DNA of 64,000 bases from Streptomyces sp. SM1. GTDB taxonomy: Bacteria; Actinomycetota; Actinomycetes; Streptomycetales; Streptomycetaceae. Both the position numbers and the translations under genes were made by a program. The DNA lies in contig NZ_NEUB01001030.1 of NCBI RefSeq assembly GCF_002910825.1, forward strand, positions 1-64,000, given 5' to 3'. Under the pieces are notes generated by a model that was given only the letters and a program-made list of their open reading frames with translations, had not been told where the DNA came from and ran no database searches. The first letter of the stretch is position 1; each line of letters starts with the position of its first letter. This document shows, piece after piece, positions 23,256 to 55,327 of the stretch.

Positions 23256-23405
23256 ATGGCGACCTTGGGCGGGTAATGCACCAAGGTGGACGTGATCGCA
23301 TTCGCCGTCGAACTCCTTCAGCTCCGCCTCGAAGTCCTCGCAGACCTTGCGCATGATCTCTTCGCAGCGCGTCAGCACCTCGTCGTCGAACACCCCGCGC
23401 GCCGG
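23256..23405 (-). pseudogene. remnant of IS200-type TnpA (Y1/HUH transposase)
   Basis: On the minus strand, 23393 downwards reads VFDDEVLTRCEEIMRK, then EAELKEFDGECDHVHL. This is a TnpA core with the metal-binding HUH motif (HVH, at 23286-23294). After one frameshift it continues VHYPPKVAI (about 23256-23282), again typical TnpA. Upstream the frame is closed by a stop, and the helix with the catalytic tyrosine is missing, so this is an inactive fragment. Its orientation opposite to tnpB is that of IS605-like elements with divergent genes. The 345-bp gap between ISAs1 and tnpB contains nothing else I recognise. Confidence 0.7.
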
Positions 23406-40726: not shown

Positions 40727-43309
40727 GTGCCCGGTGAGAACCTGACCCGCGACGAGGCCCGGGAGCGGGCGGCCCTGCTGTCCGTCGACGGGTACGAGGT
40801 GTCCCTCGACCTGCGGTCGGCGGTCGGCGAGCACGGCGGCGAGGGCCGGCGCACCTTCCGCTCCGTGACCACCGTGCGGTTCCGCTGCGCCGAGCCGGGC
40901 GCGAGCAGCTTCGCGGATCTGATCGCGCCGGGCGTCACGGCCGTCTCGCTGAACGGCCGGGACCTCGACCCCGGCCAGGTGTTCGACGGCTCACGGATCC
41001 TGCTGGAGGACCTCGCCGCCGAGAACGAACTGGTGGTCGACGCGGACTGCGCCTACTCCCGCACCGGCGAGGGCATGCACCGCTTCGTCGACCCCGAGGA
41101 CGGCGAGGTGTACCTGTACACGCAGTACGAGCCCGCCGACTCCCGTCGCGTCTTCGCCAACTTCGAGCAGCCCGACCTCAAGGCCCCGTACCGCTTCGAG
41201 GTGCGCGCGCCCGAGGGCTGGACGGTGTGGAGCAACGGCGCCGGTGAGCTCGCCGACGGCGTGTGGCGGTTCGCGGAGACCAAGCCGATCTCGACCTACA
41301 TCACCTGCGTGGTGGCGGGCCCTTACCACTACGTCACCGACAGCTACGAGCGGGTCTTCGAGGACGGGACGCGCCTGGAGATCCCGCTGGGCGCGATGTG
41401 CCGCAAGGGGCTGGCCCCGCACTTCGACGCCGACGACGTCTTCCTGGTGACCAAGCAGGGCCTGGACTTCTTCCACGACCACTTCGACTACCCGTACCCG
41501 TTCGGGAAGTACGACCAGGCCTTCGTGCCGGAGTACAACCTGGGCGCGATGGAGAACCCGGGGATGGTCACCTTCCGCGAGGAGTTCATCTTCCGGGGCA
41601 AGGTCACGCGGGCGTCGTACGAGGGCCGGGCGAACGTCGTCCTGCACGAGATGGCGCACATGTGGTTCGGCGACCTGGTCACCATGGAGTGGTGGGACGA
41701 CCTGTGGCTGAAGGAGTCCTTCGCCGACTTCATGGGCGCCTTCTCGCTGGTCGGCGCGACCCGTTTCACCGACGGCTGGATCACCTTCGCCAACCGCCGC
41801 AAGGCGTGGGCGTACCGCGCGGACCAGCTGCCCTCCACACACCCGATCACCGCGGACATCCGCGATCTGCAGGACGCCAAGCTCAACTTCGACGGCATCA
41901 CGTACGCCAAGGGCGCCTCGGTGCTCAAGCAGCTGGTGGCGTACGTGGGCCAGGACGCGTTCCTGGAGGGCGCGCGGCGCTACTTCAAGCGGCACGCGTA
42001 CGGCAACACCACCCTCGGTGATCTGCTGTCGGTCCTTGAGGAGACCAGCGGGCGGGACATGGGCGCGTGGGCCCGTTCCTGGCTGCAGACGGCGGGCGTC
42101 AACTCCCTGACGCCGCAGGTGCTGTTGGACGCGGACGGCCGGATCGACGAGCTGGCCGTCGTGCAGGAGGCCGCCGAGTCGCATCCCGAACTGCGCCCGC
42201 ACCGGGTGGCGGTGGGTCTCTACCGGCGCACGGAGTCCGGCACGCTGGAACGCTACGCGCAGGCCGAGACGGACGTCGACGGCGCGCGCACGGTCGTGAC
42301 GGAGCTGGCGGGCGCGGACGCGCCGGAGCTGGTCCTGGTCAACGACGACGACCTGACGTACTGCAAGACCCGCTTCGACGACACGTCGCTGGCGGCGCTG
42401 CGCGAGCACCTGGGCTCGCTGACCGACCCGCTCGCCCGCGCCCTGTGCTGGTCGGCGCTGTGGAACATGACGCGGGACGCGCTGCTGCCGGCCCGGGAGT
42501 TCATCGAGCTGGTGCTGCGGTTCGCGGGCCGGGAGTCCGACATCGGCGTGCTGCAGATGCTGCACGCGTGGGCGGAGTCGGCGGCGGTGCACTACACCGC
42601 GCCGGGGCGGCGGGAGCAGGCGGGGCGCCGGCTCGCCGAGGGCGTGTCCCTCCAGCTGTACGCGGCCGAGGCGGGCAGCGAACACCAGCTGGCGTGGGCG
42701 AGGTTCTTCGCCCGTACGGCCGAGGCACCGGCCGGCTTCGAGCTGCTGACCTCGCTGCTGGACGGCACGGTGACCCTGCCGGGTCTGGAGGTGGACCAGG
42801 AGCTGCGCTGGGCGTTCCTGGAGCCGCTGGCCGCGCACGGGGAGGCGGACGAGAAGCGGCTGGACGAGGAGCTGGCCCGGGACGACACCGCGTCCGGCAA
42901 GCGGCACCACGTGCGCTGTCTGGCCGCCCGCCCGTCGGCGGCGGTCAAGGCGCAGTGCTGGGCGCAGGTCGTGGAGTCGGACGCGCTGTCCAACGCGCTG
43001 GTGGAGGCGACGATCGCGGGCTTCGTCCAGCCGCCCCAGCGGGAGCTGCTCGCGCCGTACGCGGAGCGGTACTTCGCGGTGATCGAGCGGGTGTGGACGG
43101 AGCGGTCGATCCAGATCGGCATGGATGTGGTCCGGGGCCTCTTCCCCTCCTTCCAGGACTCACGGGCGACGCTGGACGCGACGGACGCCTGGCTCGCCTC
43201 CCACGAGGACGCGGCGCCCGCCCTGCGCCGTCTCGTCCTGGAGTCCCGCGACGACCTGGCGCGGGCGCTGCGCGGCCAGGAGTGCGACGAGGCGGCGGCC
43301 GGCCGCTGA
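40727..43309 (+). CDS. pepN1: aminopeptidase N (M1), divergent paralogue
   Basis: An 860-residue M1-family metallopeptidase removing N-terminal residues from peptides. The exopeptidase motif GAMEN is at 273-277. The zinc site HExxH is at 307-311 with the third ligand Glu330 (LKESFADF). The C-terminal ERAP1-like helical domain fills residues about 520-840. It differs from the second PepN in this window at sites next to the active site (GAMENPG, WWDDLWLKES), so specificity may differ. The GTG at 40727 follows GAGGAGTCC. No signal peptide, so cytoplasmic. Confidence 0.92.
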   Translation: MPGENLTRDEARERAALLSVDGYEVSLDLRSAVGEHGGEGRRTFRSVTTVRFRCAEPGASSFADLIAPGVTAVSLNGRDLDPGQVFDGSRILLEDLAAENELVVDADCAYSRTGEGMHRFVDPEDGEVYLYTQYEPADSRRVFANFEQPDLKAPYRFEVRAPEGWTVWSNGAGELADGVWRFAETKPISTYITCVVAGPYHYVTDSYERVFEDGTRLEIPLGAMCRKGLAPHFDADDVFLVTKQGLDFFHDHFDYPYPFGKYDQAFVPEYNLGAMENPGMVTFREEFIFRGKVTRASYEGRANVVLHEMAHMWFGDLVTMEWWDDLWLKESFADFMGAFSLVGATRFTDGWITFANRRKAWAYRADQLPSTHPITADIRDLQDAKLNFDGITYAKGASVLKQLVAYVGQDAFLEGARRYFKRHAYGNTTLGDLLSVLEETSGRDMGAWARSWLQTAGVNSLTPQVLLDADGRIDELAVVQEAAESHPELRPHRVAVGLYRRTESGTLERYAQAETDVDGARTVVTELAGADAPELVLVNDDDLTYCKTRFDDTSLAALREHLGSLTDPLARALCWSALWNMTRDALLPAREFIELVLRFAGRESDIGVLQMLHAWAESAAVHYTAPGRREQAGRRLAEGVSLQLYAAEAGSEHQLAWARFFARTAEAPAGFELLTSLLDGTVTLPGLEVDQELRWAFLEPLAAHGEADEKRLDEELARDDTASGKRHHVRCLAARPSAAVKAQCWAQVVESDALSNALVEATIAGFVQPPQRELLAPYAERYFAVIERVWTERSIQIGMDVVRGLFPSFQDSRATLDATDAWLASHEDAAPALRRLVLESRDDLARALRGQECDEAAAGR

Positions 43310-52582: not shown

Positions 52583-52714
52583 GGTGCCAGCGCGACCGGA
52601 GCCCCTCCCTCAGGTCCGACCGAGGGGTATCCCCATGGTCCGGCTGCGTCATCGCCCGATGCCGATCCCGCGTGGAAGGATGACGCAACCCACACATAAC
52701 GAGGAGATGACCGC

Positions 52715-55327
52715 GTGCCTGGCACAAACCTGACCCGCGAAGAGGCGCAGCAGCGGGCGAAGCTGCTGACCGTTGACTCGTACGAGATCGACCTGGATCT
52801 CTCCGGCGCGCAGGGTGGGGGTACCTCCCACTCGAGCGAAGCCGAGAGTGGGGGAGGGACCTACCGGTCCGTGACCACGGTGCGCTTCGACGTGGCCGAG
52901 GACGGAGACGGCGCCGAGTCGTTCATCGACCTGGTCGCTCCGGCCGTGCACGAGGTGACCCTCAACGGTGACTCCCTCGACCCCGCCGAGGTCTTCGCGG
53001 ACTCCCGCATCGCCCTGCCGGGCCTGTTGAAGGGCCGCAACATCCTCCGGGTGGAGGCGGACTGCGCGTACACCAACACGGGTGAGGGCCTGCACCGCTT
53101 CGTCGACCCGGTCGACGGCCAGGCGTACCTCTACACCCAGTTCGAGGTGCCGGACGCCCGCCGCGTCTTCGCGAGCTTCGAGCAGCCGGACCTCAAGGCG
53201 ACCTTCCGGTTCACCGTGAGGGCGCCGGAGGGCTGGACGGTCGTCTCCAACTCGCCGACCCCCGAACCGAGCGGCAACGTCTGGGAGTTCGAGCCGACCC
53301 CGCGCATCTCGTCGTACATCACGGCGCTGATCGTCGGCCCGTACCACTCCGTGCACAGCGTGTACGAGAAGGACGGCCAGTCCGTCCCGCTCGGCATCTA
53401 CTGCCGCCCCTCGCTCGCCGAGTACCTCGACGCGGACGCCGTCTTCGCGGTCACCCGGCAGGGCTTCGAGTGGTTCCAGGAGAAGTTCGACTACGCGTAC
53501 CCGTTCGCGAAGTACGACCAGCTGTTCGTACCGGAGTTCAACGCGGGCGCCATGGAGAACGCGGGCGCGGTGACGATCCGCGACCAGTACGTGTTCCGGT
53601 CGAAGGTGACCGACGCCGCGTACGAGGTGCGGGCCGCGACGATCCTGCACGAGCTGGCCCACATGTGGTTCGGCGACCTGGTCACCATGGAGTGGTGGAA
53701 CGACCTGTGGCTGAACGAGTCGTTCGCCACCTACGCCGAGGCCGCCTGCCAGGCCGACGCGCCCGGCTCGAAGTGGCCGCACTCGTGGACGACGTTCGCG
53801 AACCAGATGAAGACCTGGGCCTACCGCCAGGACCAGCTGCCGTCCACGCACCCGATCATGGCCGACATCGGCGACCTGGACGACGTGCTCGTCAACTTCG
53901 ACGGCATCACGTACGCCAAGGGTGCGTCGGTGCTGAAGCAGCTCGTCGCGTACGTCGGTGAGGACGAGTTCTTCCGGGGCGTGCAGGCGTACTTCAAGCG
54001 CCACGCGTACGGCAACACGCGCCTGTCGGACCTGCTGGGCGCCCTGGAGGAGACCTCCGGCCGCGATCTGAAGACGTGGTCGAGGCAGTGGCTGGAGACG
54101 GCCGGCATCAACATCCTGCGCCCGGAGTTCGAGACGGACGGCAACGGTGTCATCACCTCCTTCGCCGTCCGCCAGGAGGCCCCCGCGCTGCCGGCCGGCG
54201 CGAAGGGCGAGCCGACCCTGCGCCCGCACCGCATCGCGATCGGCTTCTACGACCTCGACGAGGCGAGCGGCAAGCTGGTGCGCGGCGACCGCGTCGAACT
54301 GGACGTCGACGGCGAGCTGACCGCCGTGCCGCAGCTGGCCGGCAAGCGCCGTCCGGCGGTCGTCCTCCTCAACGACGACGACCTGTCCTACGCCAAGGTC
54401 CGCCTGGACGAGCAGTCCCTGGCCTTCGTCACCGAGCACCTGGGCGACTTCGAGTCCTCGCTCCCCCGCGCGCTGTGCTGGGCCTCCGCCTGGGACATGA
54501 CGCGGGACGCGGAACTCGCCGCCCGTGACTACCTCTCCCTCGTCCTGTCGGGCATCGGCAAGGAGTCCGACATCGGTGTCGTGCAGTCGCTGCACCGCCA
54601 GGTGAAGCTGGCGATCGACCTGTACACCGATCCGGCCGCCCGCGAGACGCTGCTGTCCCGCTGGACCGACGCCACGCTGGCCCACCTGCGGTCCGCGGAG
54701 GCGGCGAGCGACCACCAGCTGGCGTGGGCACGCGCCTTCGCGGCGACCGCCCGCACCCCGGAGCAGCTGGACATGCTGGAGGGGCTGCTGGCCGGCACGC
54801 AGACCGTCGAGGGCCTGGCCGTCGACACCGAGCTGCGCTGGGCGTTCGTCCAGCGGCTGGCGGCGGTGGGCCGCTTCGACGAGGCGGAGATCGCCGGCGA
54901 GTACGAGCGGGACAGGACGGCGGCCGGTGAGCGCCACGCCGCGACCGCCCGCGCGGCCCGTCCGACGGAGGAGGCCAAGGCGGAGGCCTGGGCCTCGGTC
55001 GTGGAGTCCGACAAACTCCCGAACGCCGTCCAGGAGGCCGTCATCGCCGGCTTCGTCCAGATCGACCAGCGCGAGCTGCTGGCCCCGTACACGGACCGGT
55101 ACTTCGAGGTCCTGGCGGACGTCTGGTCGTCCCGCTCGCACGAGATGGCCCAGCAGATCGCGGTCGGCCTCTACCCCGGCATCCAGGTCTCGGGCGAAAC
55201 CCTCGACAAGACCGACGCCTGGCTGGCGGCCACGGCCCCGGGCGCGGCCCTGCGCCGCCTGGTCTCGGAATCCCGCGCGGGAGTGGAACGGGCGCTGCGC
55301 GCCCAGGCGGCGGACGCGGGAGCGTAA
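52715..55327 (+). CDS. pepN: aminopeptidase N (M1)
   Basis: An 870-residue M1 metallopeptidase, the likely main PepN of the cell. GAMEN is at 278-282, HExxH at 312-316 and the third zinc ligand Glu335 (LNESFATY). The ERAP1-like C-terminal domain is complete. Residues about 35-48 (GGGTSHSSEAESGGG) are encoded by a hairpin repeat that seems to have inserted in frame; the paralogue at 40727 lacks it. The GTG start follows GAGGAG. Cytoplasmic, no signal peptide. Confidence 0.95.
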   Translation: MPGTNLTREEAQQRAKLLTVDSYEIDLDLSGAQGGGTSHSSEAESGGGTYRSVTTVRFDVAEDGDGAESFIDLVAPAVHEVTLNGDSLDPAEVFADSRIALPGLLKGRNILRVEADCAYTNTGEGLHRFVDPVDGQAYLYTQFEVPDARRVFASFEQPDLKATFRFTVRAPEGWTVVSNSPTPEPSGNVWEFEPTPRISSYITALIVGPYHSVHSVYEKDGQSVPLGIYCRPSLAEYLDADAVFAVTRQGFEWFQEKFDYAYPFAKYDQLFVPEFNAGAMENAGAVTIRDQYVFRSKVTDAAYEVRAATILHELAHMWFGDLVTMEWWNDLWLNESFATYAEAACQADAPGSKWPHSWTTFANQMKTWAYRQDQLPSTHPIMADIGDLDDVLVNFDGITYAKGASVLKQLVAYVGEDEFFRGVQAYFKRHAYGNTRLSDLLGALEETSGRDLKTWSRQWLETAGINILRPEFETDGNGVITSFAVRQEAPALPAGAKGEPTLRPHRIAIGFYDLDEASGKLVRGDRVELDVDGELTAVPQLAGKRRPAVVLLNDDDLSYAKVRLDEQSLAFVTEHLGDFESSLPRALCWASAWDMTRDAELAARDYLSLVLSGIGKESDIGVVQSLHRQVKLAIDLYTDPAARETLLSRWTDATLAHLRSAEAASDHQLAWARAFAATARTPEQLDMLEGLLAGTQTVEGLAVDTELRWAFVQRLAAVGRFDEAEIAGEYERDRTAAGERHAATARAARPTEEAKAEAWASVVESDKLPNAVQEAVIAGFVQIDQRELLAPYTDRYFEVLADVWSSRSHEMAQQIAVGLYPGIQVSGETLDKTDAWLAATAPGAALRRLVSESRAGVERALRAQAADAGA
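52814..52859. repeat. palindromic element inserted in pepN
   Basis: A hairpin-forming stretch: GTGGGGGTACCTCCCAC (about 52815-52831) is nearly self-complementary, then CTCGAGCGAAGCCGAGAG and GTGGGGGAGG close a larger stem. From general knowledge, sequences of this GGGGGTACCTCCC...GAGCGAAGCCGAG...GGGGGAGG form are scattered through streptomycete genomes. Here it adds about 14 residues to the protein without breaking the frame. Confidence 0.6.

Follow-up and report, generated by a model that had tools for sequence, protein, structure and literature searches.

REP elements are dispersed hairpins of high copy number, which are mostly located outside genes and possess a conserved GTAG-like tetranucleotide 5' of the hairpin. 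Rickettsia palindromic elements (RPE) are short palindromic repeats of about 150 bp, which occur in frame in unrelated protein genes (PMC10969869). By analogy, and without a comparison of the sequences, RPE are the closest precedent for the Streptomyces element analysed here, since in this element, too, a palindrome lies in frame in unrelated proteins. The two differ in length (42 bp, net 36, versus about 150 bp), and the Streptomyces element additionally swaps approximately six target bases and nests in its own loop. With REP elements it has in common that it is a dispersed hairpin of high copy number, mostly unassigned to genes, whereas its in-frame gene insertions and the loss of target bases set it apart from REP/RAYT systems, as does the absence of a solitary RAYT gene among the matches listed. 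A GTAG-like tetranucleotide was not seen upstream of the copies, which were only looked at by eye and not searched systematically. Bacterial MITEs are likewise small, non-autonomous, palindromic and dispersed; in contrast to these, the Streptomyces element shows no target duplication, and no parent transposon with matching ends was found among the three IS200-like loci compared. No literature on this element was found among the matches listed, which covered open-licence PubMed Central papers only, so that this absence is weak evidence. The exact 17-mer core occurred in 0 papers of the open-licence PubMed Central text, and the available part of PMC4681348 holds nothing on the element.

The window, i.e. 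the whole analysed stretch of 64,000 nucleotides of Streptomyces sp. SM1, contains a near-palindrome at positions 52814-52859 within the pepN frame, as the original prediction had claimed (Table 1). A covariance model matched this copy at 52815-52859 with 66.1 bits (E 1.5e-11). The consensus of the element is ATGGGGGTCCCCCCGCTC-GAGCGA-AGCCGAGAGTGGGGGAGG (arms of 18, loop of 6), and pepN harbours a subtype that has GTGGGGG(T/C)ACCTCCC on its left side. Elsewhere in the 64-kb window, neither the core with up to three mismatches nor a looser hairpin pattern revealed another copy. A comparison with Rfam (window 52600-53050, E up to 5) yielded a single match with a score below the gathering threshold, located downstream of the element. 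The energy of the RNA fold at the pepN stretch (-26.2 kcal/mol, z -1.52; 17 of 200 shuffles fold equally well or better) was rejected as evidence, because it is too weak and a hairpin alone lies within chance for GC-rich DNA.

Table 1. Positions of pepN, its paralogue and the parts of the hairpin element in the window
Feature	Position	Strand	Remarks
pepN, M1 aminopeptidase with in-frame insert	52715..55327	+	870 aa; Pfam Peptidase_M1; insert residues about 34-48: GGGTSHSSEAESGGG
pepN paralogue without element	40733..43297	+	tblastn 57% identity to PepN; loop reads SAVGEHGGEGRRTFRS
42-bp hairpin element	52816..52857	+	18-nt left arm, 6-nt loop GAGCGA, 18-nt right arm
Apical loop hexamer GAGCGA	52834..52839	+	place where other copies hold nested elements; none nested here
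Left stem arm	52825..52833	+	basis: predicted fold
Right stem arm	52846..52856	+	basis: predicted fold

It is the repetition, and not the fold, that sets the element apart from chance. The 17-base core CTCGAGCGNAGNCGAGA occurs exactly 35 times in the draft genome, and with up to two mismatches 74 matches (38+36) were obtained in comparison to 27 (10+17) for the reversed control. A covariance-model search of the genome gave at least 65 places at E<=0.1, at least 58 of them at E<1e-3. These numbers are lower bounds, as 150 of 8939 first-look candidates were scored; the model comprised 22 rows, of which 21, including the window copy, were taken from this genome and one from G136. The view that the element is of a dispersed type is thus confirmed by matching DNA at dozens of other places in the genome, in the core search as well as in the covariance search. 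Of 28 Streptomyces genomes, 9 contained the exact core 26-mer, compared with 0 of 268 genomes of other genera of the class, and the reversed-control 26-mer had no match in the same 28 and 268 genomes.

In the draft genome (1057 contigs), 44 copies with at least 48 bits each, the window copy included, were examined with their flanks. Judged by codon-position GC and translation, eight of them lie in frame within genes, named by Pfam as pepN, add (adenosine deaminase), sip (siderophore-interacting protein), an acyl-CoA dehydrogenase, a response regulator, kdpA (KdpA), topA (topoisomerase I) and sufD (SufD). Both orientations and four of the six possible frames are represented. In two further own genes, DUF1992-like (L100, G000:C261:740-785) and GH43-like (L076, G000:C1019:2583-2627), both named by eye, the frame is shifted by a single base where the element lies (net +35), which is perhaps real or perhaps a homopolymer or draft error. 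Among copies fetched from relatives, 9 of 25 (G130 and G142) and 7 of 40 (G160 and G136) were called in-gene, and L251 and L270 were added by alignment. The gene of L251 encodes a Cu-oxidase_4 according to Pfam, while that of L270 gave no Pfam match; G160 also has a copy in sufD (L279). Over this and related genomes, more than twelve unrelated proteins besides PepN have gained 12 in-frame residues from the same element, as judged from the sequences.

The remaining copies could suggest that the element is kept for a function at gene ends, for example as a transcription terminator or an mRNA-stabilising hairpin, with the gene copies being accidental. For 34 of the 44 own copies no gene was assigned, though by codon-position GC, which is a rough test, and many of these are embedded in other palindromic intergenic repeats. 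Such a retained function is nevertheless an unlikely explanation, though not a negligible one: no T-run follows the hairpin in the flanks inspected, and the open frame continues through the gene copies, which are forward in pepN and reversed in topA and kdpA. The intergenic copies, among them L066, L067, L085 and L101, were observed within repeated palindromes of the types GCCCCCGGGGAC..GGAAGGGGCGG and GTGCCGCAGGGC..GGGCGCGACGGCAC.

Empty orthologues were found for all eight own in-frame genes, which supports the claim that these elements move into genes. In flank-anchored alignments with four empty orthologues, the pepN element corresponded to a gain of 42 bp and a loss of 6 bp (net +36). The same loss of a 6-bp target and net gain of 36 bp (12 codons) was found in 14 of 15 in-frame single-element events, namely pepN, add, sip, acd, rr, kdpA, topA, sufD, L153, L154, L251, L270, L271 and L257, and the loss of six bases applied to 45 of 45 orthologue rows of these events. 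One to five orthologues per event were taken into the alignment, not every one fetched. The exception is L247, open in frame, in which 8 bp were lost in comparison to its only orthologue (net 34; +33 by coordinates in six genomes). For the sip orthologue L197 the net size was 48 due to a further indel, yet six bases were lost beside the element. No target-site duplication occurred in the 15 in-frame events; target bases were lost instead.

Several orthologues and copies do not enter these numbers. For example, L120-L122 (acyl-CoA dehydrogenase) and L133 (add), with 36 gap columns each, were left out, as were L113-L115, which were never aligned, and L213 (gene of L154), with a net of -3 through another indel; L150 showed a 36-nt gap plus another indel. 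The gene-borne copies L254, L267 and L269 were judged by coordinates alone: for L254, five of the seven genomes listed showed +36, one +40 and one a partial match; L267 was +33 in five genomes but +36 in three, and L269 ranged from +35 to +37. By coordinates, L270 and L271 were mostly +36 (+27 in G229 and +33 in G223, respectively), and the net size of L257 was variable. L157, the neighbours of L251 and the copies L255, L262 and L266 were kept outside the counts as unresolved.

In out-of-frame and intergenic cases the size is less exact than in genes, where it is best shown. Losses of 5, 5, 5 and 4 (C422), 5, 4 and 3 (C522), 7 (C1019) and 7 and 7 bases (C261) were obtained, C682 gave +37 or +38 by coordinates, and a copy of a longer form (C868:29261) a net of +39. 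When paralogous intergenic repeats served as empty sites, seven stretches of 24, 29, 29, 30, 30, 30 and 36 nt in this genome stood against 66 nt for two filled ones; a difference of 36 was the commonest (three of seven) and not the only value. In genes the frame is under selection, although losses of 0, 3, 9 or 12 bases would equally preserve it. Furthermore, an exchange of 42 for 6 bp cannot be distinguished from one of 40 for 4, because the element ends in a GG that the target shares (identity 0.84-0.89 over the final two positions). A pure insertion of 36 nt with later substitutions was rejected as well, as this fit costs 2.30 mismatches of 6 on average.

From these comparisons, and from sequence data only, the pepN segment probably represents a small mobile hairpin of Streptomyces that is non-autonomous and exchanges approximately 6 bp of target for 42 bp. 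Dispersal together with presence or absence at orthologous sites shows, by comparison, mobility and in-frame capture.

The pepN site itself was compared at 29 loci of relatives, of which 6 carried the element (one decayed) and 23 did not (one with a scar). In sister species the empty site reads GCGCAGGAGGGCGGCACC. The original prediction would have failed if all relatives had carried the segment and if no matching DNA existed elsewhere; neither is the case, given this empty site and the dozens of other copies. A search of 295 genomes of the genus with the start of pepN revealed filled genes in at least this genome, G160, G136, G223, G109 and G255, and a decayed one in G064. Filled pepN genes were also found in the named genomes of Streptomyces sp. 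HM190, S. griseoaurantiacus JCM 4763, Streptomyces sp. CHD11, S. oryzae and Streptomyces sp. CT34, which apparently overlap in part with the numbered ones. In a PepN tree of 24 hand-chosen rows (10 filled and 14 unfilled, including the scar of G102; loop removed; HM190 partial), the filled rows were scattered and not clustered. Nine changes between the filled and the unfilled state were counted, and well supported branches require at least six of them.

This scattered pattern would be explained equally by several insertions at the same site, by gain with later loss, or by gain with interspecies recombination, and horizontal exchange of pepN alleles could mimic recurrence, which speaks against reading every change as an insertion. 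Instead of being inserted repeatedly, the segment could be ancestral with many losses, or could have passed between species by recombination. The ten filled genes share their orientation and, where still readable (that of G064 is decayed), the type of left arm. In addition, the start of pepN in G102 (L058 and L324) contains GGTGGGGGTACCTACC, which looks like the scar of a lost element and is exactly the product expected from a filled allele that was deleted between its two ACCT repeats. Because of this exact match, it is probable that loss of the element at pepN also happens. On the other hand, the plain target GAGGGCGG(C/T) is present in 9 of the 14 unfilled genes and would not be regenerated by an imprecise loss, and filled and unfilled sisters occur in three well supported pairs (G136/G195, G109/G236 and G064/G294). 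Recombination of short tracts is not excluded. An ancestral segment, or its spread between species, seems improbable to us, without being ruled out.

The hexamers lost in the 14 events share a motif near GRGCGG, with 2.61 bits in comparison to 0.91 bits (sd 0.30, max 1.96) in 200 random placements. Their match to the loop GAGCGA was 3.29 of 6 at the true offset and 1.81 (sd 0.26) at other offsets. It counts against the mobile-hairpin reading that GGGCGG fits the targets better than the loop does (3.93 versus 2.34 elsewhere), and the value for GGGAGG, the right end of the element, was also raised (3.17 versus 2.13 elsewhere). A further point against it is that, when each event was left out in turn, only 4 of the 14 placed the true offset at the top, with a mean of 9% of the offsets scoring higher. 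Retention of the target hexamer as the loop between two added arms of 18 nt was tried and rejected (P 0.34 in a permutation test of the whole hexamer); taken singly, position 6 gave P 0.038, uncorrected for six tests.

The loop of the element also fits the GRGCGG-like motif, and copies nested in other copies sit at the loop of the host. It may be inferred that nesting occurs because the loop itself is a fitting target. Nesting, not necessarily through independent events, was flagged for 5 of the 44 own copies, four of them with both host arms (one left arm was recognised by eye), and for 14 of 25 copies in two relatives. Nested doubles were also observed in frame in protein genes, with +72 (L136 and L141) or with +75 where the host copy is of the longer form (L138, L142 and L146). 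The host genes encode an AMP-binding enzyme, a GH43 enzyme, a StiP-like protein, a sigma factor with DUF6596 and a molybdopterin oxidoreductase.

An enzyme of its own might not be required if microhomology-mediated template switching or ectopic conversion copied the hairpin into GRGCGG-like sites. The GG of the target equals the GG end of the element, the targets resemble both its loop and its right end, and the sizes are more variable outside genes, all of which would fit such copying. However, variable junctions would then be expected, whereas the two ends hardly vary and 14 of the 15 in-frame events have the same net size; the lacking retention of target bases in the loop does not agree with it either. 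We regard this origin as quite unlikely.

A mechanism of the REP/RAYT or IS200/IS605 type, with a Y1 transposase that carries the hairpin in single-stranded form to a place next to a short target, without duplicating this target, would account for the hairpin, the high copy number, the nesting and the lack of target duplication, and Y1_Tnp genes are present in the genome. The PF01797 matches, however, consist of seven 160-aa frames of equal score and one fragment covering 39 profile positions. The seven frames look like one insertion sequence: five were fetched, and the three compared are 99.9-100% identical over 1.8 kb. No additional single-copy RAYT gene appeared among the matches listed in this draft, and between the element and the three IS200-like loci compared only matches of chance length (<=10 nt) were found. 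A loss of about six target bases is not known to be a feature of the REP/RAYT or IS200/IS605 family. A REP/RAYT link was rejected on the grounds of the missing solitary Y1 gene among the matches listed and of the missing match to these three loci, and we consider a mechanism of this type very unlikely. The window itself contains a fragment of an IS200-like Y1 transposase (23283-23399, minus strand; profile positions 17-55 of 121), of which seven full-length copies lie on other contigs.

For the mobile hairpin, 14 of the 15 aligned in-frame events show approximately 6 bp of a GRGCGG-like target exchanged for the 42-bp element, with a net gain of 36 bp (an exchange of 40 for 4 bp fits equally well). 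The exchange would be performed by a sequence-specific recombinase or transposase acting in trans, which is inferred and unidentified; no mobilising enzyme was identified for the element. As 36 is divisible by three and stop codons are absent from all six frames of the consensus, the frame would be kept and 12 residues would be added in any phase and orientation. Of the 44 own copies, 41 are also free of stops in six frames; against the exchange reading, this property is not rare at the given base composition, as 28% of shuffles of the consensus share it. Presumably, the surviving gene copies are those which reside in tolerant loops. A more specific proposal is that a dedicated enzyme swaps a GRGCGG-like hexamer for a hairpin with a like hexamer in its loop, so that one target is removed and another one supplied, with +36 per round (nested +72) and the frame kept. 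This is a tentative idea, which we judge less likely than not to hold. The mechanism of exchange as such has a fair chance of being new.

The window encodes a second M1 aminopeptidase, related to PepN and lacking the element (Table 1), so that the Gly/Ser-rich loop is indeed missing from the paralogue, as anticipated. The best PDB match of PepN is an alanine aminopeptidase (7v9n), which is shorter at the insert site. In the predicted structure, the insert is placed in the N-terminal domain between two strands (20-31 and 49-60); with a mean pLDDT of 55 and an alignment of 7 rows, this prediction is usable only for the strand-loop-strand pattern. Short insertions not derived from the element (GGDADGSGHG-type and AGE) were observed in the same PepN loop (L317 in G294 and L334 in G048), and the loop is therefore regarded as tolerant to indels. 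The element adds a Gly/Ser-rich segment between two predicted beta-strands, probably merely tolerated and without a selected function. While insertion into genes, the first part of the earlier claim, is supported, tolerance as a protein insert, as opposed to harm or benefit, is only inferred from the in-frame presence.

An abundant hairpin in a free-living genus of antibiotic producers writes inserts of 12 residues and frame-keeping size into core proteins, among them topoisomerase I, SufD and KdpA. These inserts represent natural insertion experiments on protein loops. They are also a source of lineage-specific protein differences, which could be misread as adaptive. Furthermore, the element offers a clear genetic test for the unknown mobilising enzyme. 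If the exchange rule is true, its mode of insertion would be unlike those of the families compared here (RPE, REP/RAYT and MITE), and if a dedicated enzyme performs it, the element would be a natural system for the in-frame insertion of peptides.
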